Assembly: GCF_013346935.1 (NCBI RefSeq)
Contig: NZ_JAAEEB010000003.1
Coordinates: 124,001-188,000, forward strand
DNA from: Lactobacillus melliventris
GTDB taxonomy: Bacteria; Bacillota; Bacilli; Lactobacillales; Lactobacillaceae
Length of the DNA: 64,000 nt
Direction: 5' to 3'
Every line of letters starts with the position of its first letter. Positions within the stretch are counted from its first letter, which is position 1. The notes below the pieces were generated by a model. The model saw nothing but the letters and a program-made list of their open reading frames with translations. It searched no databases and was not told where the DNA came from. Shown one piece after another: positions 4,736 through 15,655 of this stretch. The position numbers were made by a program, and so were the translations under genes.

Positions 4736-4774
4736 ATAATATAACTAGTATATTCGCATTAAGGAGTGTTAAAA

Positions 4775-6670
4775 GTGGCTGAAACAAATATTGTAGTTAT
4801 TGGCGGCGGCTATGGTGGTCTGTATACGACTAAGCACCTTGCCAAGAAATTAAAAAAGCGGCATGATATCAAAATCACGCTGATTGATAAAAATCCTTAT
4901 ATGACTATGATGACTTCACTTCATGAAGTTGCGGCTAACAGGGTAGAAGCCAAAAGTTTGAAATATGATCTGCAACGTTTATTTTCGCGGAGAAAAAATG
5001 TTGATGTTGTAACTGACAATATTACCAAAATTGATCAATCTGCCAAAAAAGTTATTGGCGATAACGGCAGTTATCCCTACGATTATGTCATATTAGCTAT
5101 TGGTTCGCAGCCTAATGACTTTAATACTCCTGGTGTTAAAGAAAACGGCTTTGTTTTAGGCAATCTGGACGATGCAGAGCAATTACGTGACCACATTGAT
5201 ATGATGGTTCATTTAGGTTCTAAAGAACGCGATCCCGAAAAGCGGGCACAGTATCTTAACTTTGTCGTTGTTGGTACCGGGTTTACTGGCACTGAAATGG
5301 CCGGAGAATTAAATTCTTGGCGTGGTGATTTAGCTAAAAAATATAACCTGCAAAAAGATGATATCAAGATAACCATGATGGAAATGGCACCAACGGTTAT
5401 GAATATGCTTGATCGCTCTGATGCTGATAAGGCAGAAAAATATCTCTTAAAACAAGGTGTAGAAATTAAAGTCAATACTGGCGTTGTTGGTGTTCATGAA
5501 AATTATATTGATCTTAAAGATGGTTCAACATATCCGACCAGAACTTTAATTTGGACTGCTGGTGTTAAAGCTGTTGATACTGCTAAAAACTTTGGTTTTG
5601 AGACTGGCAGAGCCGGCAGAATTATAGTTAATGAATATTCCCAAATTCCAACCGATCCCCATGTTTACGTCATAGGAGACGTTGCTCTTTATGATGCTAA
5701 CGGCAGCGGCCGCGGTGAACCACAAGTGGTTCAAGGGGCTGAATCTGCTGGTAAGTGTGCTCTAAGAAATATTTTGAGTCAGATTAACGGCGGTGAACCC
5801 GTTAAGTTTAAAGGCACCTATTCAGGATTTATGGTTTCTTTAGGGCCTGCTTGGGGTGTGGCCTCTCTTGTTAATACTTTTCATCTGAGCGGCTTTTTCG
5901 CCATCTTAATGAAAGACATAGTGGATATGATTTACTTTATGGAAATCTATTCTGGTCATTATCTCTTTCATTATATTATGGATGAATGGTTCAGAATTAA
6001 GCGCCCAACTTTATGGCGCGGTAATCTTAACCGGTATGGCAATGTCTTATGGACTGTACCTTTGAGAATTTACTTAGGCTTAATGTGGTTAGTAGACTGC
6101 TGGTATAAAGTTCAAGGCAGTGGTTCTTGGTTTACCAACAAATTGCAACTGCATTTTCCATGGCTTGTGCAAGCTGCAACCAGTGGCGCTTCACAGAAAG
6201 CTGCCGCTACTACAGCAGCAAGTGGCAAGGCAGCGACTTCTGCTGCTCCTGCACTATTTTCCCTAAACTATGACTATGGTCACTCACCAATGGCTGTTTT
6301 TGATAAAATGCCAAACTGGGTACAATCAATGACTAAAGTCATGATTCCTAACAAGGATGCGGCATTAGTTGCTCAAAAGACAATGACGTGTTTGGAAATT
6401 GCATTAGGAATTATGCTGGTTTTAGGATTATGCACCTGGTTTGCCGGTGGCATGAGCGCAATTTTTGTAGCTATTTTCTGTTTATCAGGAATGAACTATT
6501 GGGTAAATGTTTGGATGATATTTGCGGCAATAGCAGTTATGAACGGCTCTGGTAGAGCATTTGGTCTGGACATGTGGTTTGTTCCATGGCTAGAAAAGAA
6601 GCTTACTAAGCTGAGATATGGTGTCTTGAAGCCAATTTATCATGTCGATAAAAACGGGGTAAAGAACTAA
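4775..6670 (+). CDS. ndh2: Type II NADH:quinone oxidoreductase with C-terminal membrane domain (Ndh2)
   Basis: Oxidises NADH and reduces demethylmenaquinone at the inner face of the membrane; entry point of the FLEET chain. GTG start at 4775 has AAGGAG eight bases upstream and gives an N-terminus that runs straight into the FAD-binding IGGGYGG loop (residues 10-15). A second dinucleotide motif, VVGTGFTGTEMAG, lies near residue 165, and the FAD-closing YVIGDVALY near residue 305. At 631 residues it is about 200 longer than classical Ndh. The extra C-terminal part has several hydrophobic helices and an Ala/Thr-rich linker, as in the FLEET form of Ndh2. First gene of the plus-strand operon, divergent from pplA. 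Confidence 0.9.
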   Translation: MAETNIVVIGGGYGGLYTTKHLAKKLKKRHDIKITLIDKNPYMTMMTSLHEVAANRVEAKSLKYDLQRLFSRRKNVDVVTDNITKIDQSAKKVIGDNGSYPYDYVILAIGSQPNDFNTPGVKENGFVLGNLDDAEQLRDHIDMMVHLGSKERDPEKRAQYLNFVVVGTGFTGTEMAGELNSWRGDLAKKYNLQKDDIKITMMEMAPTVMNMLDRSDADKAEKYLLKQGVEIKVNTGVVGVHENYIDLKDGSTYPTRTLIWTAGVKAVDTAKNFGFETGRAGRIIVNEYSQIPTDPHVYVIGDVALYDANGSGRGEPQVVQGAESAGKCALRNILSQINGGEPVKFKGTYSGFMVSLGPAWGVASLVNTFHLSGFFAILMKDIVDMIYFMEIYSGHYLFHYIMDEWFRIKRPTLWRGNLNRYGNVLWTVPLRIYLGLMWLVDCWYKVQGSGSWFTNKLQLHFPWLVQAATSGASQKAAATTAASGKAATSAAPALFSLNYDYGHSPMAVFDKMPNWVQSMTKVMIPNKDAALVAQKTMTCLEIALGIMLVLGLCTWFAGGMSAIFVAIFCLSGMNYWVNVWMIFAAIAVMNGSGRAFGLDMWFVPWLEKKLTKLRYGVLKPIYHVDKNGVKN

Positions 6671-6681
6671 CAATGGTAACT

Positions 6682-6724
6682 CTAAAAAGTCCTATGGTTT
6701 TATCTGTAAGACTTTTTTAGTTTT
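6682..6724 (+). terminator. Possible intra-operon terminator between ndh2 and eetA
   Basis: Stem CTAAAAAGTC (6682-6691) with GACTTTTTTAG (6710-6720), followed by TTTTA. It may lower expression of the downstream eetA-eetB-dmkB genes relative to ndh2. AT-rich and therefore weak. Confidence 0.4.
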
Positions 6725-6743
6725 ATTGTTAGTGAGGTAATAC

Positions 6744-7121
6744 ATGAAAATTTTAAAGAAGCTTAAACTTGGTGATTTTTTAATTATAGTAGTTTTATTA
6801 ATCATTAGTTTTACTCCTTTTTATATGTTGCACAATCAGGAAAAAGCTGACGATCAAATTATAGGAATCGTCAAAATTAATAATCGTGAAGTGAAAAGAC
6901 TCTCTTTAGCTAAAGATCAGAAATGGCGTTATCAAAAAAATGGTAAAATTAATATTGTACAAATAAAAAAGCACAAGATTCGGGTAATTGATGCCAATTG
7001 TAAGGATCAAGTATGTGTTAAAGAAGGCTGGAAAAGCGAAAGCGGGGATACAATAGTCTGTCTGCCACATAAATTTTTAATTGAGCTAAAAAATAAAAAT
7101 CAAATTGACGATAATAAATAG
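6744..7121 (+). CDS. eetA: EetA, membrane-anchored NusG-domain-II-like protein
   Basis: A 125-residue protein with one N-terminal transmembrane helix (residues about 12-30) and an outside domain of the NusG domain II/DUF type. The conserved cysteine stretch CKDQVCVKEGW...CLPHK is clear near residues 89-113. In Listeria and Lactiplantibacillus FLEET loci EetA works with EetB in passing electrons from quinol to extracytoplasmic acceptors; the chemistry is not settled. It lies 12 bases ahead of eetB, in the same operon as ndh2 and dmkB. Confidence 0.82.
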   Translation: MKILKKLKLGDFLIIVVLLIISFTPFYMLHNQEKADDQIIGIVKINNREVKRLSLAKDQKWRYQKNGKINIVQIKKHKIRVIDANCKDQVCVKEGWKSESGDTIVCLPHKFLIELKNKNQIDDNK

Positions 7122-7132
7122 ATTTAAATATT

Positions 7133-7678
7133 ATGACTGAAACAAATAATTATTTACGCACATATGTGTTTACAGGAATTCTATGCTCACAAGGAATTAT
7201 TCTTAGTGTTGTTGAGCAAATGTTTCCTTCGCCCTTTTTCTTTGCACCTGGTGCCAGGCTTGGTTTAACTAATATTATAACGATGATCGCATTAATGATT
7301 TTACCTTTTAATAATTGTATTTTACTGACATTTTTGCGCCTGGTGCTAACTGCTCTGATGACAGGAGGTACTGGTACCTTTTTATTCGCTGCAGCAGGGT
7401 CATTTTTAAGTCTGTTTTTAATGAAATTGTTTTTACCGCTGGTTCCCAGATTTATCAGCATAATGGGGGTATCAATTCTTGGCGGCGTATGTCATAATTT
7501 TGGTCAATTATTAATTGCAGTGCTGCTAGCACATAGTAAATATATTTTATTGTATTTGCCTTTATTGACAGTATTCGGAATTCTTTCTGGAACAATAGTT
7601 GGTCTTGTCAGCAGCTACTTATTGCATTATGTTGATGCATTGAGTTTTATCAAAGGAATAATTAATAAAGGTAATTAA
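7133..7678 (+). CDS. eetB: EetB, Gx-transporter-family membrane protein
   Basis: 181 residues, almost wholly hydrophobic, with about five to six helices. It belongs to the family often annotated 'heptaprenyl diphosphate synthase component I' or Gx transporter because it usually sits beside a polyprenyl synthase, as here (dmkB begins two bases later). Visible signs are the PGARLGLTNIITM segment and the Gly-rich GGTGTFLFAAAGSFLS. In FLEET the partner of EetA. No strong Shine-Dalgarno is seen before 7133, so it may be translated by coupling with eetA. Confidence 0.82.
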   Translation: MTETNNYLRTYVFTGILCSQGIILSVVEQMFPSPFFFAPGARLGLTNIITMIALMILPFNNCILLTFLRLVLTALMTGGTGTFLFAAAGSFLSLFLMKLFLPLVPRFISIMGVSILGGVCHNFGQLLIAVLLAHSKYILLYLPLLTVFGILSGTIVGLVSSYLLHYVDALSFIKGIINKGN

Positions 7679-7679
7679 C

Positions 7680-8639
7680 ATGTCAAGGCTAGAAAAAGAG
7701 TTACAGCAAGTCCAAAATACAATTCAAAAAAATATCCGGACGCCAAAAGGTAAACTGGGAGAAGCAGTCAGATATGCGTTTTCTAAGCCTGGCAAGCAAT
7801 TACGTCCTAGTTTTGTTTTATTATTTGGAGAAATGGGTGAAAGCAAGAGGGAACAGAAATTAATTAATATTGCCGGTTCGATTGAAATACTGCACAATGC
7901 CACTCTAATTCATGACGATATCATTGATAATTCAAATGTTAGAAGGGGCAGAGCATCGGTTCAAGCCAAATACGGTAAAACTATAGCACTATATGCTGGA
8001 GACTTCTTATTTGCTTTGTCATTACAGCTGCTAAGTGAAAACACTTCAAAGATAACAAATCTGCGTGCAAACGGCAGCACTATGCAAAAAATACTTGCAG
8101 GTGAAACCACTCAGTTTGGTAATGAATATGATATTACAATTACGGAAGAAGAATATCTTGAACAAATTCGGGGCAAAACGGCTAGTTTATTTGGTTATGC
8201 CTGCTATATTGGTGCTCTAGAAGGTGGACTTAGTAAAAGACTGGCCAGAAGTGCTCAGCAAGTAGGTGTGCTATTTGGTCAGGCATTTCAACTGCGGGAT
8301 GATATATTAGATTACACCGCTTCTACTGCTGAATTAAAAAAGCCGGTATTATCAGATGTGGTTAACGGTGTTTATACTGGTCCCCTGATTTTTGCACTGA
8401 AAAAAGATTCTTCTGGTAAATTGAGGGATTTAGTTAAGAAGGGTAAGAAACTGAATTCTGCTCAATTGGAGCAAATTGACCTTCTGGTGAGTGAATTGGG
8501 TGGAATTAGGCATGCACAAGATTTAGCAAATGACTTTACAAATAGCGCATTGGCGCTACTTGAGAAAAACTTTGCCGAGTATCCTGGATATGAAAAGGTC
8601 GCTGATATTGTCCGTAAAATGCTTACCAGAAATTGTTAA
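7680..8639 (+). CDS. dmkB: Polyprenyl diphosphate synthase (DmkB)
   Basis: Trans-prenyltransferase that builds the isoprenoid tail of demethylmenaquinone from IPP and an allylic primer. Both Asp-rich motifs are intact: HDDIIDNS near residue 80 (first, DDxxD) and LRDDILDY near residue 207 (second). The length, 319 residues, is normal for the family. It overlaps the eetB ribosome context tightly and closes the ndh2 operon; a strong terminator follows. Its product is the substrate for DmkA (1399-2412). Confidence 0.9.
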   Translation: MSRLEKELQQVQNTIQKNIRTPKGKLGEAVRYAFSKPGKQLRPSFVLLFGEMGESKREQKLINIAGSIEILHNATLIHDDIIDNSNVRRGRASVQAKYGKTIALYAGDFLFALSLQLLSENTSKITNLRANGSTMQKILAGETTQFGNEYDITITEEEYLEQIRGKTASLFGYACYIGALEGGLSKRLARSAQQVGVLFGQAFQLRDDILDYTASTAELKKPVLSDVVNGVYTGPLIFALKKDSSGKLRDLVKKGKKLNSAQLEQIDLLVSELGGIRHAQDLANDFTNSALALLEKNFAEYPGYEKVADIVRKMLTRNC

Positions 8640-9235: not shown

Positions 9236-9264
9236 TTGACATGCTAATGTTCTTTTTTTATAAT
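9236..9264 (+). promoter_or_regulatory. Consensus sigma-A promoter of the livJHMGF leader
   Basis: TTGACA (9236-9241), 17 bases, TATAAT (9259-9264): an exact consensus promoter. It directs transcription through the leader peptide at 9301 and the attenuator at 9476-9503 before reaching livJ. Confidence 0.85.
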
Positions 9265-9300
9265 TCTAAGTATTAAATTAAATTTTGGGAGGTGATTTTA

Positions 9301-9390
9301 ATGAAAGCTAAATATTTAAATATGCGAAGTAATGCTAAAAATATTATTGCCCAAAATTTAATTGCCTTGTTGTTGTCGCGTAGGACTTAG
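9301..9390 (+). CDS. 29-residue leader peptide of livJHMGF (BCAA-sensing)
   Basis: ATG at 9301 with GGGAGGTG seven bases before it. The peptide has Ile-Ile, then Asn-Leu-Ile-Ala-Leu-Leu-Leu-Ser-Arg-Arg-Thr-stop. The C-terminal part is nearly the same as that of the second leader at 14202-14291 (Asn-Leu-Val-Ala-Leu-Leu-Leu-Glu-Arg-Arg-Thr-stop) although the N-terminal parts differ. Three TTG Leu codons in a row sit just before the sequence that can pair with the downstream RNA (9382-9390). I infer that ribosome stalling on Leu codons controls the attenuator. Not a structural protein. Confidence 0.8.
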   Translation: MKAKYLNMRSNAKNIIAQNLIALLLSRRT

Positions 9391-9399
9391 CTTGAATAG

Positions 9400-9503
9400 A
9401 TTACTTCTAGTAATTTTACATGTTGAGCCCTTGTTTGCGTCTAATGAATGGGGCTTGACCAATAATTGACTAAAGCCTCATTCATTAAGTGAATGAGGTT
9501 TTT
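9400..9503 (+). promoter_or_regulatory. Transcription attenuator upstream of livJHMGF
   Basis: Parts seen: small hairpin ATTACT-TCT-AGTAAT (9400-9414); segment 2 (TTGAGCCC, 9423-9430), able to pair with the leader stop region AGGACTTAG (9382-9390) or with segment 3; segment 3 (9442-9456), able to form 15 pairs (one G-U) with 9473-9487; and a Rho-independent terminator, stem CCTCATTCA (9476-9484)/TGAATGAGG (9490-9498) plus TTTTT. The segment 3 to 9473-9487 helix destroys the terminator. Expected logic: completed leader translation favours 2:3 and termination; stalling at Leu codons favours 1:2 and readthrough. Confidence 0.78.
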
Positions 9504-9533
9504 GGTTACCAAGCTATTTATAAGGAGAAAATG

Positions 9534-10736
9534 ATGAATAAATTTTCAAAGAAAATGTTGCGCGTCCTGACGTTGGGAATGGCTGGCTTAGCGTTAGCAG
9601 GCTGTTCAGTAGCAAAAAGCGGGGGAGGCAAGGGTACACACCAAGATAAAGATACAGTCAAGGTCGGGATTAATATTGAGTTGTCTGGTACTGCTGCCGG
9701 CTACGGCAGTGCCGAAAAACAAGGTATAGTTCTAGCCGCTTCTGAAATTAATAAGGCTGGTGGAATTAACGTCAATGGGCATAAGAAGAAGCTTAAGTTG
9801 CTTATCCGTGATAACAAGTCCTCAATTGCTACTTCGGCTTCAGTCGCTGCACAATTGGTAACCAAGGATAAAGTGGCTGCAGTTGTAGGGCCAGCTACTA
9901 CTAACTGCGGTACGGCAGAAATTCCTAATGTTACCAAGGCTTCTGTTCCCTGCGTTAGTCCATCCGCAACTGATCCAAACTACACTAAACAGAAGGACGG
10001 CAAAGTGCAACCTTATGCCTTCAGAGCCTGCTTCCAAGATACATTCCAGGGAAAGAGCGCAGCTAAGTTCGTCGACAATAAGCTGAAAGCCAAACGGGTA
10101 GCTGTCTATGCTGATAACTCCAGTGATTATGGCACTGGTTTAGCTAAAGCCTTCAAGGAAACTTATAAAGGCAAAATTGTGGACAGTCAAACATATTCTG
10201 CCGGTGATAAAGACTTCAACGCTGTTTTAACTTCATTTAAATCTAAGAAGATCGATGCTATTTATGTACCCGGCTATTACACAGAGCTTGGTTTAATCAT
10301 AAAGCAAGCACGTCAGATGGGTCTAAAAGCTCCAATCGTTGGTGGTGACGGAATGTGTGATCCGAAACTAGTTCAAATAGCAGGTGCTAAAAATGCAACT
10401 AATATTTATTACACCACGCCATTTTCAACCAATGTAGCTGCTAAAAACCCAGATTCAAAAGCTGCTAAGTTTATCAAAGCATATAGAGCTCGTTATCATT
10501 CCGAAGCGCCAACATTTTCAGCTTTGGCTTATGATGCAGTTTATTTAGTAAAAGCAGCTATTGAGCAACAAAAATCTGATGATTCCGTTAAAGTTGCTGC
10601 AGGTCTGGCTAAGATAAAAGACTTTGATGGTGTTACCGGTAGAATTACCATGGATAAGTTCCATAATCCTGAAATGCCGATCGCTATTGAAAAATTGACT
10701 AATGGTAAAGTAAGCGACTCGTTTCGTGTTGAGTAA
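9534..10736 (+). CDS. livJ: Branched-chain amino acid ABC transporter, substrate-binding lipoprotein
   Basis: Binds Leu/Ile/Val (family expectation) outside the membrane and hands them to LivHM. Start at 9534 is favoured by AAGGAG six bases upstream; an ATG three bases earlier is possible and longer forms would begin inside the terminator hairpin. Lipoprotein signal with lipobox LAGC (Cys24). The periplasmic-binding type I fold is seen from VKVGINIELSGTAAGYG, the IRDNKSSIATSASVAAQL segment and VGPATTN. It is about 400 residues and closely related to the second copy at 14453-15655. First structural gene of livJHMGF. Confidence 0.92.
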   Translation: MNKFSKKMLRVLTLGMAGLALAGCSVAKSGGGKGTHQDKDTVKVGINIELSGTAAGYGSAEKQGIVLAASEINKAGGINVNGHKKKLKLLIRDNKSSIATSASVAAQLVTKDKVAAVVGPATTNCGTAEIPNVTKASVPCVSPSATDPNYTKQKDGKVQPYAFRACFQDTFQGKSAAKFVDNKLKAKRVAVYADNSSDYGTGLAKAFKETYKGKIVDSQTYSAGDKDFNAVLTSFKSKKIDAIYVPGYYTELGLIIKQARQMGLKAPIVGGDGMCDPKLVQIAGAKNATNIYYTTPFSTNVAAKNPDSKAAKFIKAYRARYHSEAPTFSALAYDAVYLVKAAIEQQKSDDSVKVAAGLAKIKDFDGVTGRITMDKFHNPEMPIAIEKLTNGKVSDSFRVE

Positions 10737-10761: not shown

Positions 10762-11640
10762 TTGCAAACAGTTTTACAGCAAATCATTAATGCCTTGTCA
10801 CTAGGATCAATTTATGCCTTGCTGGCTTTAGGCTATAGCATGGTTTATGGCATTATTAACTTAATTAACTTTGCTCATGGCGATATTTATATGTTAGGTG
10901 CATTCTTTGCTTACTATGTGATTAATGCTTGGCATTTTAACTTTATTACAGCACTGCTTTCTGCAATGATTATTGGTGCAGTTTCTGGTGTAGTGATTGA
11001 ATATTTTGCTTATCGACCACTACGTAAATCACCTCGAATAGCAGTATTGATTACGGCTATTGGTGTTTCGTTCTTACTAGAAAATGGTATGTCATATTTT
11101 GTCGGTTCAAATGCTCGTAGTTTTCCGCAAGTAATTGAACAAGTTAATTACAATATTGGTGGGGTGCAAATTTCAAACGTTCAAATTTTGATTTTAGTTA
11201 CCGCCTTGATTTTAATGGTTTCATTACAGCTGATTATTCAAAAAACTAAGATGGGTCGAGCGATGCGGGCAGTTTCTGTTGATCCCGCTGCAGCTGAATT
11301 AGTTGGTGTTAATGTTAATCATACAATATCATTTACCTTCGCTTTAGGTTCTGCTTTAGCTGGTGCTGCAGGTATTTTAATTGGAATGTATTATAACCAA
11401 ATTGATCCTTTAATGGGAATGACGCCTGGTATTAAGGCGTTTGTGGCTGCCGTTTTAGGCGGAATTGGTTCAGTACCTGGAGCATCTCTTGGTGGCTTCT
11501 TAATCGGAATTTTAGAGACATTTTTCCAGTCAATTGGCTTGTCGGCATATAAAGATGCAGTCGTTTATCTGGTATTAATTGTTATTTTGCTTTTCTTACC
11601 TGCTGGCATTTTTGGCAAAAATACTAAAGAGAAGGTGTAG
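10762..11640 (+). CDS. livH: Branched-chain amino acid ABC transporter permease LivH
   Basis: One of the two channel-forming subunits. TTG start at 10762 with AAAGGAG 10 bases before. 292 residues, about eight hydrophobic helices; the family signature LALGYSMVYGIINLINFAHGD occurs as residues 21-41 and a Gly-rich PGIKAFVAAVLGGIGS motif (ATPase-coupling EAA-like region) near residue 222. Second gene of the operon, 26 bases after livJ. Confidence 0.92.
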   Translation: MQTVLQQIINALSLGSIYALLALGYSMVYGIINLINFAHGDIYMLGAFFAYYVINAWHFNFITALLSAMIIGAVSGVVIEYFAYRPLRKSPRIAVLITAIGVSFLLENGMSYFVGSNARSFPQVIEQVNYNIGGVQISNVQILILVTALILMVSLQLIIQKTKMGRAMRAVSVDPAAAELVGVNVNHTISFTFALGSALAGAAGILIGMYYNQIDPLMGMTPGIKAFVAAVLGGIGSVPGASLGGFLIGILETFFQSIGLSAYKDAVVYLVLIVILLFLPAGIFGKNTKEKV

Positions 11641-11648
11641 GTGGCAAA

Positions 11649-12605
11649 ATGAAATCGAATTGGAAATACATTTTGTCGTGGCTGTTATTAATGGTAGGTG
11701 GATTTTACCTAATCAATGCGCTGATAATGGTTGGCGTCATAGATGATTTTATTGAAAACATGCTGGTCACGATTGGAATAAATATTATCTTAGCAACTGG
11801 CTTGAACCTGATTATAGGCTTCAGTGGTCAATTTTCTCTTGGTCATGCAGGTTTTATGGCAATAGGAGCATACGCTACTGCAATTATTACTCAACGTATG
11901 AGTAGTGAAGCTGGCTTCTTAGTTTCAATGTTCGTAGGGGTACTTTTAGCTATTATCATTGCAGCAATTATTGGGACGGCTACCTTCATTCGCTTAAAGG
12001 GTGATTATTTAGCAATTGCTACTTTAGGAGCAGCTGAGATTATTCGGAATGTCATTAATAATTTGAAAATTACTGGTGGAGCAGCCGGATTGTACAATAT
12101 TCCGCAATTATGTTCATGGCCTACTGTTTATATTTTAGTTTGTGTAACTACAATTATCTTGACGAATTTTATTCGTTCGAAAAATGGTCGAGCAATTAAG
12201 GCTGTGCGGGAAGATGAAATAGCTGCTGAAGCAATGGGTATTAATACTACCAAATGGAAATTAGCTGCTTTTGTCTTAGGAGGCGCGACAGCTGCAATTG
12301 CCGGCAGTCTCCATGCTTCATTCTTACAAACAATCTCACCTTCAAACTTTGGCATTATGGAATCAATCTCTATACTGGTTATTGTTGTTTTGGGTGGTGT
12401 TGGCAGTATGACTGGCACATTTGTAGCAGCAATCGTTTTAGGAGTTTTAGACACCGTTTTACAAAGCTTTGGTGCATTAAGAATGGTGATCTATGCTATA
12501 GTTTTAATATTAATCATGATTTTCAAGCCATCGGGACTTTTAGGTAACTGGGAATTCTCCCTTAAAAATTTAACCCGCCACTTCGGTAAAAAGGAAAGGA
12601 GCTAG
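11649..12605 (+). CDS. livM: Branched-chain amino acid ABC transporter permease LivM
   Basis: Second channel subunit. 318 residues with about nine helices; LivM signatures include GLNLIIGFSGQFSLGHAGF near residue 53 and VVLGGVGSMTGT near residue 247. It starts eight bases after livH ends, with GAAGGTG upstream, and stops two bases before livG. Works as a heterodimer with LivH. Confidence 0.92.
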   Translation: MKSNWKYILSWLLLMVGGFYLINALIMVGVIDDFIENMLVTIGINIILATGLNLIIGFSGQFSLGHAGFMAIGAYATAIITQRMSSEAGFLVSMFVGVLLAIIIAAIIGTATFIRLKGDYLAIATLGAAEIIRNVINNLKITGGAAGLYNIPQLCSWPTVYILVCVTTIILTNFIRSKNGRAIKAVREDEIAAEAMGINTTKWKLAAFVLGGATAAIAGSLHASFLQTISPSNFGIMESISILVIVVLGGVGSMTGTFVAAIVLGVLDTVLQSFGALRMVIYAIVLILIMIFKPSGLLGNWEFSLKNLTRHFGKKERS

Positions 12606-12607
12606 AT

Positions 12608-13390
12608 ATGCCACACTTATTAGATGTTGACCACGTAGTGCGAAAATTTGGTGGGTTGACTGCCGTTAATGATGTTTCACTCCATCTGGACAAGCACGAA
12701 CTAGTTGCCTTGATTGGACCTAACGGTGCTGGTAAAACTACCTTGTTCAACTTGCTAACCGGCATGGTGCAAGTTACTAGCGGAAAGATTAATTTACAAG
12801 TTGATGATCAAAATTATGATTTAACCCATAAAAGTGCAGTTCAAATAGCAGATTTAGGATTGTCCCGGACATTTCAAAATATTCGCTTATTTAAAGACTT
12901 AACAGTAATGGATAATGTTTTAACTGCAATGACAAATGAATATAAGGAAAACTTTTTAACAACAGTTTTTCGCTTACCGAGTTTCTATAAAACCGAAAAG
13001 GAAATGAGAGCAGCCGCCCAAAAATTACTGGCAATTTTTGATTTGACAGAAAATGAGCAAACTCTAGCCAAAAACCTGCCCTATGGAACGCAAAGACGTC
13101 TAGAGATAGTTCGAGCATTAGCAACACATCCGCAGATTCTTTTCTTGGATGAACCAGCGGCGGGGATGAACCCTGAGGAAACGGCAGATTTGACTAACCT
13201 TATTAAGTATATTCAAAAAGAATTCCAAATCACGGTTTTGCTGATTGAACACGATATGTCTTTGGTCATGAACTTGGCGGAAAGGATCTACGTACTTGAT
13301 CAAGGTGAAATACTGGCTACCGGATCACCTGAAGAAATCAAAGCAAATCCTAAAGTTATAGAAGCATATCTAGGAGAGGGTGATGACTAG
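12608..13390 (+). CDS. livG: Branched-chain amino acid ABC transporter ATP-binding protein LivG
   Basis: Cytoplasmic ATPase. Walker A GPNGAGKTT near residue 37-45, Q-loop in SRTFQNIRLF, signature region LPYGTQRRLEI (an LSGGQ variant usual for LivG) and Walker B ILFLDEPAAGMNPEET. 260 residues, normal length. AAAGGAGC immediately upstream. Pairs with LivF. Confidence 0.93.
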   Translation: MPHLLDVDHVVRKFGGLTAVNDVSLHLDKHELVALIGPNGAGKTTLFNLLTGMVQVTSGKINLQVDDQNYDLTHKSAVQIADLGLSRTFQNIRLFKDLTVMDNVLTAMTNEYKENFLTTVFRLPSFYKTEKEMRAAAQKLLAIFDLTENEQTLAKNLPYGTQRRLEIVRALATHPQILFLDEPAAGMNPEETADLTNLIKYIQKEFQITVLLIEHDMSLVMNLAERIYVLDQGEILATGSPEEIKANPKVIEAYLGEGDD

Positions 13391-14101
13391 ATGGCAATGT
13401 TAGAAGTTCGTGACCTGTCTGTAAATTATGGTGTTATTCAGGCTGTCAAGAATGTCAGCTTTGAAATTAACCAGGGTGAAATTGTAACCCTGATTGGTGC
13501 AAATGGTGCTGGCAAATCAACTATTGTTAAAACCATTTCTGGTTTACTTAAACCTAAAAGCGGTCAAATTTTTTACCTTGGAGAAGAAATTGATCATAAA
13601 AGTGCACCGCAAATTGTGAATGCGGGTATTTCACAAGTAGCTGAGGGTCGGCATATCTTTGCTGGCATGACTGTAATGGAAAACCTGCAGATGGGTGCAT
13701 TTTTACAAAAAAATCATGACGAAGTTTCTAAAACGTATAAAGAGATTTTTGAGCGTTTCCCAATTTTGCAAAAAAGACGAAGTCAGGATGCTGCCACTTT
13801 ATCTGGTGGTGAACAGCAAATGTTGGCAATGGGGCGTGCCTTAATGGCTAAGCCTAAATTGTTACTACTTGATGAGCCTTCAATGGGTTTATCACCCTTA
13901 TATATTCAAGAAATTTTTAAAATTATTAAAGAACTAAACGAAAAAGGTACGACTATTTTGTTAATTGAACAAAATGCTAAACAAGCATTGTCAATTGCAG
14001 ATCGGGGCCATGTGTTGGCTACCGGTGTAGTGCAATTAAGTGGTACCGGTCAAGAACTATTAGCTAACCCAGAGGTGCAGAAAGTATACTTTGGTGGCTA
14101 G
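13391..14101 (+). CDS. livF: Branched-chain amino acid ABC transporter ATP-binding protein LivF
   Basis: Second ATPase of the importer. Walker A GANGAGKST (residues 36-44), signature LSGGEQQMLAMGRAL, Walker B LLLLDEPSMGLSP, H-loop replaced by the family-typical LLIEQNAK. It begins directly at the livG stop, with AGGAGAGGGTGATG as ribosome site, so translation is coupled. No terminator is evident before the second leader at 14202, so some readthrough into livJ2 is possible. Confidence 0.93.
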   Translation: MAMLEVRDLSVNYGVIQAVKNVSFEINQGEIVTLIGANGAGKSTIVKTISGLLKPKSGQIFYLGEEIDHKSAPQIVNAGISQVAEGRHIFAGMTVMENLQMGAFLQKNHDEVSKTYKEIFERFPILQKRRSQDAATLSGGEQQMLAMGRALMAKPKLLLLDEPSMGLSPLYIQEIFKIIKELNEKGTTILLIEQNAKQALSIADRGHVLATGVVQLSGTGQELLANPEVQKVYFGG

Positions 14102-14201
14102 TACATAATAAAACTGTTGTAATGACTGTGAGAATAATTCATTATTAAGTCACACGTTCAAACGCATAAAGTTTACTTAAAATTCTGAGGAGGTAATTTT
14201 G

Positions 14202-14291
14202 ATGACAACGAAATATTTAAACAAACAAAACAATATTAATATCTTTCAAATTCAGAATTTAGTTGCCTTGTTGTTGGAGCGCAGGACTTAA
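14202..14291 (+). CDS. 29-residue leader peptide of the second livJ
   Basis: ATG at 14202 with GAGGAGGTAA eight bases before it. It has the same length and same C-terminal half (Asn-Leu-Val-Ala-Leu-Leu-Leu-Glu-Arg-Arg-Thr-stop) as the first leader at 9301-9390, plus three Ile codons and the three consecutive TTG codons. The N-terminal residues have diverged apart from Lys-Tyr-Leu-Asn, as expected if only the sensing codons and the RNA pairing are selected. Confidence 0.8.
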   Translation: MTTKYLNKQNNINIFQIQNLVALLLERRT

Positions 14292-14300
14292 CGTGTATGA

Positions 14301-14409
14301 ATTACATTATGTAATTTAAAAGCAGTTAAGCCCTAGTTTGCGTGTCAATGATTGGGGTTTAACTAATTAATAATTTGAGCCTCATTCATTGAATTGAATG
14401 AGGCTTTTT
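14301..14409 (+). promoter_or_regulatory. Transcription attenuator upstream of the second livJ
   Basis: Same architecture as 9400-9503. Hairpin ATTACA-TTA-TGTAAT (14301-14315) differs from its partner by a compensated base pair. Segment 2 GTTAAGCCC (14325-14333) pairs with the leader stop region AGGACTTAAC (14283-14292) or with segment 3 GGGTTTAAC (14355-14363). Segment 3 (14345-14359) also pairs with 14378-14392, the left arm of the terminator GCCTCATTCA/TGAATGAGGC (14379-14404) plus TTTTT. Confidence 0.77.
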
Positions 14410-14452
14410 GGTTGGCATTTTAATTAATTTTAGAGAGAAAAGGAACTAAAAG

Positions 14453-15655
14453 ATGGATAATATTAGTGGTATTAAAAAAGTAATGAGTGTTGTTGTTACT
14501 GGTGTGGCGGCTTTCATGCTGGCAGGCTGTACTGTAGCAAAAAGTAGTGGCAGTACTGGTACTAAACAGGATAATAAAACTGTCAAGATTGGCGTTAACA
14601 TGGAATTGTCTGGAGCTGCAGCTGGCTATGGCAATGCTCAAAAGCAGGGAATTGAACTAGCCGTTAGTGAAATTAATAAAAAGGGCGGCATTGACGTTAA
14701 CGGTCAAAAGAAGAAAATTAAGCTCATTGTGCGTGATAATAAAACAGCTATTGCTACGTCTGCTTCTGTTGCAGCCCAACTAACTAATAAAGATAAAGTT
14801 GCGGCAATCGTGGGACCGGCCACTACCAATGCGGGTACAGCCGAAATACCTAATATTACTAAAGCAAAAGTGCCAAGTGTCAGTCCTTCAGCGACGGATC
14901 CGAATTACACTTTACAAAAGAATGGCAAAGTACAGCCATTTGTTTTTAGAGCATGCTACCAAAATAACTTTCAAGGTAGCAGTGCTGCCAAGTTTGTAAT
15001 GAATAACGTTAAGGCAAAAAGAGTAGCCGTTTACAGTGATAACTCAAGTGATTACGGCAATGGTCTGGCTAAAGCATTTAAGAAAGCATATAAAGGTAAA
15101 ATTGTTGATAGTCAAACTTTTTCAGAAGGTGACAAGGACTTTAACGCTGTTTTAACTTCGTTTAAAGCAAAGAAGGTTGATGCTATTTATGTTCCTGGTT
15201 ATTACACTGAAGTGGGTTTAATCATTAAACAAGCACGTCAAATCGGAATTAAAGTGCCAATTATTGGCAGCGATGGCATGGCTGATCCGAAACTGGCTCA
15301 GATAGCTGGAGCTAAAAACGCAAGCGGAATCTACTACACAACACCATTTTCAACTCAAGTAGCTGCTAAAGATCCGACAGCTTCTAAATTTATGCAGAAT
15401 TTTAAGAAGCGTTACCATGAAGAAGCACCAACCTTTTCAGCTTTAGCTTATGATGCTGTATATATGATCAAGGAAGCAATTGAAAATGAAAAATCTGATG
15501 ATTCAGCCAAAATTGCTAAAGGGTTAAGCAATATTCAAAACTTCATTGGCGTAACTGGCAAAATTAATGTTGATAAAAATCATAATCCTGAAAAGCCACT
15601 AGCAGTAGAGGAATTAATCAACGGTAAAGTAGGGAAAACTTTTAAAACTGAATAA
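14453..15655 (+). CDS. livJ: Second branched-chain amino acid-binding lipoprotein (LivJ paralogue)
   Basis: 400 residues, closely similar to LivJ at 9534-10736 over the full length (for example the shared VPGYYTE, NHNPE/FHNPE and SDDSxK segments), with lipobox LAGC at Cys26. It is monocistronic, with its own leader and attenuator upstream and a terminator downstream. A duplicated receptor could widen specificity or raise uptake of the shared LivHMGF channel; which amino acid each prefers cannot be read from sequence. Only a weak AAAGGA ribosome site is seen before 14453. Confidence 0.9.
   Translation: MDNISGIKKVMSVVVTGVAAFMLAGCTVAKSSGSTGTKQDNKTVKIGVNMELSGAAAGYGNAQKQGIELAVSEINKKGGIDVNGQKKKIKLIVRDNKTAIATSASVAAQLTNKDKVAAIVGPATTNAGTAEIPNITKAKVPSVSPSATDPNYTLQKNGKVQPFVFRACYQNNFQGSSAAKFVMNNVKAKRVAVYSDNSSDYGNGLAKAFKKAYKGKIVDSQTFSEGDKDFNAVLTSFKAKKVDAIYVPGYYTEVGLIIKQARQIGIKVPIIGSDGMADPKLAQIAGAKNASGIYYTTPFSTQVAAKDPTASKFMQNFKKRYHEEAPTFSALAYDAVYMIKEAIENEKSDDSAKIAKGLSNIQNFIGVTGKINVDKNHNPEKPLAVEELINGKVGKTFKTE

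Follow-up and report, generated by a model that had tools for sequence, protein, structure and literature searches.

Sequence evidence for a probable leucine-responsive leader-peptide attenuator family upstream of livJ in lactobacilli

The livJHMGF operon of Lactobacillus melliventris is very probably controlled by a leucine-responsive, ribosome-mediated transcription attenuator, and the element described here is one of an order-wide set and not an isolated case. Judged against Rfam 15 and the papers listed by literature searches, the attenuator family appears to be new. The window, i.e. the whole stretch of 64,000 nucleotides that was analysed, contains livJ at 9531-10736, encoding the substrate-binding protein of a branched-chain amino acid (BCAA) ABC transporter, followed by livH, livM, livG and livF at 10762-14101, all on the forward strand like every attenuator feature described below. 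The best NCBIfam match of livJ lies below the cut-off and Pfam Peripla_BP_6 above it; the best NCBIfam matches of the other four genes are LivH, LivM, LivG and LivF, each below cut-off, and Pfam domains exceed their cut-offs for the three Liv proteins tested. LivJ of the window is 93-98% identical to LivJ of L. kimbladii, L. kullabergensis, L. huangpiensis, L. laiwuensis, Lactobacillus sp. W8174 and uncultured Lactobacillus. We take the organism to be a Lactobacillus of the honey-bee type with the bee gut as habitat.

The initial annotation of this region had described an exact consensus promoter, a strong Shine-Dalgarno (SD) sequence and a 29-codon frame with three consecutive leucine codons, and all of these parts were recovered. 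The promoter TTGACA-17-TATAAT at 9236-9264 agrees with the consensus at 12 of 12 positions, and GGGAGG at 9287-9292 precedes the ATG at 9301. The leader open reading frame (ORF) MKAKYLNMRSNAKNIIAQNLIALLLSRRT at 9301-9390 ends with ALLLSRRT-stop (translation, frame test), and codons 23-25 at 9367-9375 form the leucine run. Segments 1, 2 and 3 and a terminator, with positions read from the sequence, are likewise present upstream of livJHMGF as had been proposed. Segment 1, AGGACTTAGC at 9382-9391, consists of the Arg-Thr-stop codons and one further base, and is separated by a small hairpin at 9400-9414 (folding) from segment 2, GTTGAGCCCT at 9422-9431, which can take either segment 1 or segment 3 as partner (both segments by alignment, swap test and covariation). 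Segment 3 at 9442-9459 can pair with 0, 2 or 4 (alignments, swap test, folding). Segment 4 at 9473-9487 builds the antiterminator together with segment 3 and provides the left arm of the terminator at 9476-9484 (alignment, swap test, folding), and segment 5 at 9490-9503 is composed of the right arm at 9490-9498 and five T at 9499-9503 (sequence, alignment, swap test, folding). The pairing of 9442-9456 with 9473-9487 over 15 bp with one G-U, claimed at the outset, is correct, and 1:2 comprises nine pairs with one A.C mismatch. Three further pairings had been missed. Segment 2 pairs with 9450-9459 of segment 3 over 10 bp. Segment 0, the sensed leucine codons together with the preceding alanine codon (GCC TTG TTG TTG, 9364-9375; folding, swap test, frame test), can pair with segment 3. 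The third is a hairpin over the SD, in which 9276-9289 pairs with 9350-9363.

Folding of the leader, which had been suggested as a check, revealed that the whole leader is more stable than 200 of 200 shuffles (z -4.6). Among the single hairpins, 3:4 (-20.4 kcal/mol) and the terminator (-16.9 kcal/mol) are matched by 0 of 200 shuffles each and 2:3 (-13.3 kcal/mol) by 4 of 200, and the 1:2 stretch (-19.9 kcal/mol) is equalled by 28 of 200. As in ribosome-mediated attenuators, a short leader ORF with a ribosome-binding site is present, the regulatory codons suit the downstream genes (a leucine run before livJ, with codon classes tracking the targets), and terminator and antiterminator are mutually exclusive at the sequence level.

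The reading frame indicates that the leader is translated through the leucine run. In a set of 83 elements, which includes near-duplicates, frame 0 begins with an SD-preceded ATG and stays open across the run in 82, and frames 1 and 2 do so in none (0/83 each); the remaining leader starts with the valine codon GTG. The three run codons encode leucine in 79, 82 and 76 of the 83 elements, and TTG, TTA, CTA, CTC and CTG are all used. In alignment A3, for which 98 elements were drawn after leaving out near-duplicates, the best SD-backed ORF lies in frame 0 for 94 elements and in frame 2 for four, and three of the latter read the run as isoleucine (NIIIIIKSRA, NIIIIINNRT and NIIIIIKTRT). This frame preference and the synonymous exchange of leucine codons argue against a riboswitch, T-box or protein-binding RNA within which the ORF would be incidental. 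Such an RNA would account for the better conservation of the RNA segments relative to the N-terminal half of the peptide, which diverges freely, but no Rfam model matches within the window at the gathering score, and the only models reported when three loci were searched by E-value were three for microRNAs, located at one extremity of L061. We consider it highly improbable.

A second possibility is that the peptide arrests the ribosome by its own sequence and senses free leucine instead of empty tRNA at the leucine codons. The stretch Q-(N/D)-L-x-LLL is indeed well conserved in livJ leaders, as would be expected from an arrest peptide, but the pairing of these codons in the gate helix described below accounts for QNL/QDL. 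Furthermore, the C-termini past the run differ (SRRT, KMKDPT or an immediate stop), since the reading frame of segment 1 (AGGAC...) is not the same in all leaders, and isoleucine runs replace leucine in the leaders of one ilvE and two livJ-like genes. An arrest peptide is therefore very unlikely in our view, and we return to leucine codons read by a translating ribosome as the sensor.

Five alternative helices (0:3, 1:2, 2:3, 3:4 and 4:5), the basis of the proposed switch, covary at the sequence level. In alignment A1 of 18 elements the paired cells amount to 96% for 1:2, 91% for 3:4, 97% for 2:3 and 99% for 4:5. Changes on both sides of a pair occur in these close genus sequences at 0 of 9 pairs in 1:2, 4 of 17 in 3:4, 1 of 10 in 2:3, 1 of 8 in 4:5 and none in 0:3, and the covariation of the set 0:3, 1:2 and 4:5 is not above that of its shuffles in A1. 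In A3, which was fitted to the helices 1:2 and 4:5, both-sided changes affect 7 of the 9 pairs in the former and all 8 in the latter. The helices 0:3, 2:3 and 3:4 are absent from that fitted model and are covered by a swap test, in which the own partner was compared with partners from distant elements and a mean rank of 0.5 indicates no preference. Using 97 elements (L172 was left out of tests on the 98-element set, its segment 4 columns being empty), the mean ranks were 0.69 for 0:3, 0.66 for 1:2, 0.71 for 2:3, 0.78 for 3:4 and 0.90 for 4:5, and six control pairings gave 0.42-0.50. These ranks are to be read as support and not as probabilities because the elements are related. A sixth helix, the gate helix, is formed between the region that precedes and overlaps the leader SD (5' strand 9276-9296) and the codons directly before the run (3' strand 9343-9363). 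It appears in single folds and in the swap test with a rank of 0.80 (80/97 beat the median swap; control 0.43, 37/90), and was not predicted by RNAalifold on alignment A4. In single folds its z value is -2.0 for the first copy in the window and -0.1 for a second copy, which is described below. The hairpin over the SD may restrict translation of the leader to the first ribosome.

For the transcript, its termination, the leucine response and the order of events we infer the following scheme. When leucine is scarce, the ribosome would stall on the run at 9367-9375, cover segment 0 and halt short of segment 1; 1:2 would then form and leave segment 3 free for the antiterminator 3:4, so that RNA polymerase would enter livJ. 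When leucine is plentiful, the ribosome would reach the stop codon and hide segment 1, segment 2 would capture segment 3, and 4:5 would terminate transcription. In untranslated RNA 1:2 and 0:3 could close a long hairpin that would favour termination in many, not all, elements (mean 3:4 probability 0.57, with the terminator not always favoured). In the attenuators of the E. coli trp and leu operons, a leader ORF with regulatory codons is combined with mutually exclusive helices and a terminator, and in trp the stalled ribosome covers segment 1. Segments 0, 3, 4 and 5 fit this four-segment scheme and would act like trp segments 1, 2, 3 and 4, whereas the additional covarying segments 1 and 2 fall outside it and would form an inserted relay, and here the stalled ribosome would spare segment 1. 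The initial annotation had called the element a complete ribosome-stalling attenuator of the trp/leu type. The principle of a leucine leader-peptide attenuator on livJHMGF is strongly supported by the frame, by leucine identity under synonymous change, by adjacency to livJ and by the covarying alternative helices, but the wiring does not fully correspond: the segment named 1 is most likely left free on a stall and hidden by a ribosome at the stop codon, and the trp-like competitor is segment 0. We regard the relay in particular as somewhat better than an even proposition.

A plain trp-type attenuator, a sub-case of the leucine reading, would make do with 0:3, 3:4 and 4:5, and 1:2 and 2:3 would be by-products; a ribosome stalled on leucine would free segment 3, and otherwise 0:3 would form, followed by the terminator. 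The covariation of 0:3 (rank 0.69) is in line with this, as is the position of the leucine codons inside segment 0, resembling that of the tryptophan codons in trp segment 1. It would also be the simpler account for leuA leaders, in which the stop codon directly follows the leucine run, so that the two ribosome positions, first-codon stall and stop, are only 9 nt apart. On the other hand, 1:2 and 2:3 covary as well, and the ribosome at the stop codon of a livJ leader would still cover part of segment 0, leaving segment 3 free. In addition, masking segment 1 alone on a transcript ending at segment 4 lowered the probability of 3:4 in 53 of 67 Lactobacillaceae elements and raised it in none, compared with 7 lowered and 3 raised for an equal mask in the loop between segments 1 and 2. 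On the full transcript, the segment 1 mask lowered 3:4 in 8 of 67 and the loop mask in 6. Taken together, we assume that the plain trp-type arrangement is rather unlikely and continue with the relay.

The spacing within the leaders is compatible with such a relay. The first run codon lies 13-25 nt, mostly 15-16 nt, before segment 1, and the stop codon lies between -6 and +29 nt from it (97 elements). The ribosome was assumed to extend about 11 nt past the first base in the A site; halted at the first run codon it would then just spare segment 1, and on reaching the stop codon it would cover this segment partly or completely. Folding with the corresponding masks on transcripts ending at segment 4 gave a mean 3:4 probability of 0.75 for the stall and 0.29 for the stop; 82 of 97 elements changed in the predicted direction, one was reversed and 14 stayed within 0.1. 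With mask reaches of 9, 11 and 13 nt, 67, 66 and 61 of 83 elements behaved as predicted and 0, 1 and 3 were reversed. At equilibrium of the full transcript the terminator exceeds 0.5 in 75 of 83 elements when the ribosome sits at the first leucine codon and in 79 of 83 when it sits at the stop. Because the terminator is preferred by most elements in all ribosome states, the switch would have to be kinetic. For the second copy in the window the terminator is favoured in both ribosome states. For the first element the full transcript yields 3:4 at 0.96 with the ribosome at the first leucine codon and the terminator at 0.98 at the stop, and the transcript ending at segment 4 yields 3:4 at 1.00 in both states and hence no difference.

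Between segments 2 and 3 the T-rich sequence TTGTTTGCGT at 9431-9440 is conserved and lies, beyond its first base, outside the proposed helices, and we regard it as a candidate pause site for RNA polymerase. TTNTTT, a NusG pause motif, follows segment 2 in 43 of 97 elements, compared with 5.6 expected from shuffled letters. This is no more than suggestive of NusG-type pausing at this position.

The element is widespread in the genus and beyond. A DNA search gave some match at E 0.01 in 22 of 60 genomes, and the matches below 1e-5 were all within the genus. The model R1, built from the 18 elements of A1, matches 26 of 75 genus genomes at E 0.01, two of them weakly. The 37 strong matches (E <1e-11) in 24 genomes comprise 31 directly upstream of livJ and six upstream of genes for peptide-binding proteins. 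Three of these six targets (L023, L028 and L108) were assigned by family searches and the others by similar starts; the targets at L023 and L028 are SBP_bac_5 proteins, and the best match at L108 is Opp4A, below cut-off. In the genus, 36 livJ genes were found in 27 genomes, and all 31 close ones (72-100% identity) carry the element directly upstream. The element also precedes livJ in Lentilactobacillus hilgardii. A search upstream of livJ in other lactobacilli by means of the leader C-terminus had been proposed initially; the relatives were found by covariance model, and their leader C-termini vary. The five distant livJ genes (53-55% identity) gave no confident model match in the genus (best E 0.019). 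By eye, these loci (L160, L161, L162, L163 and L164) possess another, diverged leader ending in VITLLQIM-stop or similar and a terminator-like hairpin of their own.

A second covariance model, R2, was built from 83 elements. At E up to 0.0001 it has matches in 113 of the 397 Lactobacillaceae genomes, spread over 16 of 40 genera, and these matches were read individually in part. We use this as the leading count because the genomes of L106, L114, L115/L116, L117 and L118 enter the count of R1 (97/397 at E up to 0.001, some false) through false matches alone. Eight of 40 inspected R1 matches, L106, L107 and L114-L119, show no matching leader or layout and were left out of A2 and A3. In the order, R2 matches 49 of 395 genomes, again read individually in part, from the families f1, f2, f3, f5, f7, f8 and f9, and 21 matches from families other than f1 were inspected individually. 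A phylum sample searched with stricter filters gave a match in 1 of 189 genomes, the genome of the window itself.

The genes downstream of the elements point to a common physiological theme. In the 98-element set the first downstream gene is livJ in 54 cases, leuA in 20, leuB in one, ilvD in four, ilvE in one, an oppB-like permease in four and a peptide-binding protein in six; in 90 of 98 cases the target thus belongs to the BCAA or peptide-uptake genes. Targets were classified by sequence motif, family searches covered representatives, and the six peptide-binding proteins were counted out of fourteen labelled 'other'; the remaining eight targets include CstA, an M20 peptidase and two PTS EIIC-like proteins. 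This distribution, the freely diverging N-terminal half of the peptide and the covarying alternative helices are difficult to reconcile with an independent gene for a small functional peptide, equipped with its own terminator and unrelated to livJ control. Promoter, SD, ORF and terminator would fit such a gene, which we nevertheless consider extremely improbable.

The codons near the run follow the target. Mean numbers of leucine, isoleucine and valine codons are 4.1, 0.2 and 0 in leuA leaders (n=20), 3.7, 0.7 and 0.2 in livJ leaders and 2.75, 2.25 and 1.0 in ilvD leaders (n=4), and the single ilvE leader has 0, 5 and 0. At L147, L148 and L156, two livJ-like genes and one ilvE are preceded by leaders with five isoleucine codons (NIIIII..R(T/A)-stop), which arise when TTA-type repeats are translated in the ATT frame; with the RNA layout unchanged, these elements apparently sense isoleucine instead of leucine. 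At L143, L151 and L153, VIINLLI-stop leaders with the same layout are followed by a PTS EIIC_2 protein, identified by family search at L143, which one would not expect under the control of a BCAA attenuator.

Among the closest known systems is the experimentally studied Rli60 of Listeria, an attenuator of ilvD with a 13-amino-acid BCAA leader, a terminator and an antiterminator; ilvD is transcribed less when this leader is not translated (passages of PMC5864092). The window family resembles it in these three components; as described there, Rli60 differs in having four segments and biosynthesis genes as target, whereas the window element belongs to a transporter and would sense leucine almost alone. 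The window gave no match to RF02414 at the Rfam gathering score of 60 bits. At ilvD leaders this model reached 37.7-55.4 bits in 5 of 5 genomes chosen for the search, all below the cut-off; an E-value search of 16 loci contributed weak matches at two of four ilvD elements (39.4 and 37.7 bits), and three further chosen genomes gave 52-55 bits. In the latter the ilvD leaders end with VITILLL-stop or VITILLR-stop, segments like 1 to 5 can be discerned by eye, and one leader has 13 residues, as in Rli60. R2 recognizes these three leaders weakly (E 0.0002 to 0.03), and L180-L182, which were among the candidates for A3, did not reach E 0.001, so that Rli60-like leaders are absent from A3. Rli60 probably shares its layout with the window family, and common descent is likely but not proven.

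Other leaders in Firmicutes can be compared as well. The ilv-leu operon of S. aureus has a leucine-rich attenuator peptide before BCAA genes, similar to the window, but according to passages of PMC5794164 its antiterminator pairs with the poly-U tail and leaves the terminator stem intact, and the target is biosynthetic. For Lactococcus lactis a BCAA-rich leader and terminator have been predicted (review PMC6123439), in this case before a biosynthesis operon, and the likeness to the window family is one of description; RF02414 matches the L. lactis control genome below cut-off. For hisZ/hisS paralogues in bacilli, histidine leader peptides were predicted in place of T-boxes; these concern histidine and tRNA-synthetase genes, and livJ is absent from the passages of PMC2965389 consulted. 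The identities of T-box, riboswitch and enterobacterial leucine leader (RF00512) were rejected, as the Rfam searches (window at gathering score, three loci by E-value) gave no match. A Phe_leader match at L147 in the 16-locus E-value search scored 36 bits against a cut-off of 55 and was taken as a chance likeness of leader layouts.

Amino acid control in Firmicutes is usually told through T-boxes and CodY. Single leader peptides in this phylum are already on record (passages of PMC2965389 and PMC6123439), and an earlier survey of the amino acid leaders in Rfam, of which there were four at the time, places them mainly in gamma-proteobacteria and before biosynthesis genes (as far as covered by passages of PMC3766115). 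The elements described here point to a family of ribosome-sensing attenuators that is widespread among lactic acid bacteria and is also located before genes for BCAA and peptide uptake. A livJ attenuator in lactobacilli was not found in the open-licence literature among the matches listed (titles and abstract openings). CodY controls BCAA genes in other Firmicutes (passages of PMC6123439), the same physiological task as proposed for the window attenuator. We detected CodY (PF06018) in 0 of 397 Lactobacillaceae genomes, and a control search detected CodY of B. subtilis and L. lactis. None of the eight livJ loci of Enterococcus and Vagococcus (L196-L200, L202-L204) matched R2 at E 0.01. Upstream of five of these genes (L197, L199, L202, L203 and L204) a CodY-box-like sequence is seen by eye in some cases near the promoter.

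It is tempting to speculate, though we would not yet favour it, that the window harbours two members of a BCAA regulon that extends across the Lactobacillales and uses a single RNA chassis. This chassis would comprise the gate over the SD, the sensing codons, the relay helices 1:2 and 2:3, the pause site, and the antiterminator and terminator. Only the codon run would have been changed (leucine; leucine, isoleucine and valine; five isoleucines) to serve uptake, peptide-uptake and biosynthesis genes, and the regulon would replace the BCAA control by CodY in the CodY-less Lactobacillaceae. If true, the relay would represent a separate kind of wiring among attenuators, with segment 1 hidden by the terminating and not by the stalled ribosome, and Rli60 of Listeria would conform to it as well. 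The family probably ties this experimentally studied leader to dozens of unstudied ones with a clear wiring prediction, its covariance model can be tested and deposited, and it is of relevance for BCAA uptake in bee-gut and food lactobacilli.

The second member is a complete attenuator copy at 14202-14411 between livF and a second livJ, which had escaped the initial annotation. Its leader ORF MTTKYLNKQNNINIFQIQNLVALLLERRT-stop extends from 14202 to 14291 (sequence search, leader alignment), the core with segments 0-5 from 14262 to 14411 with a terminator at 14377-14406 (model match), and the livJ-like binding protein gene from 14453 to 15655 (NCBIfam and Pfam searches). A promoter-like site was not found on its strand within 14000-14460, and therefore the second copy perhaps works on read-through of the liv operon. 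It may serve as an internal attenuator, adding a binding protein whose supply is tuned separately.

Upstream of the first element, consecutive genes at 4766-8639 encode a pyridine nucleotide-disulphide oxidoreductase, a NusG-domain-II protein, a heptaprenyl diphosphate synthase component I and a polyprenyl synthetase. We take this row to be similar to ndh2-eetA-eetB-dmk, a part of the loci for flavin-based extracellular electron transfer.
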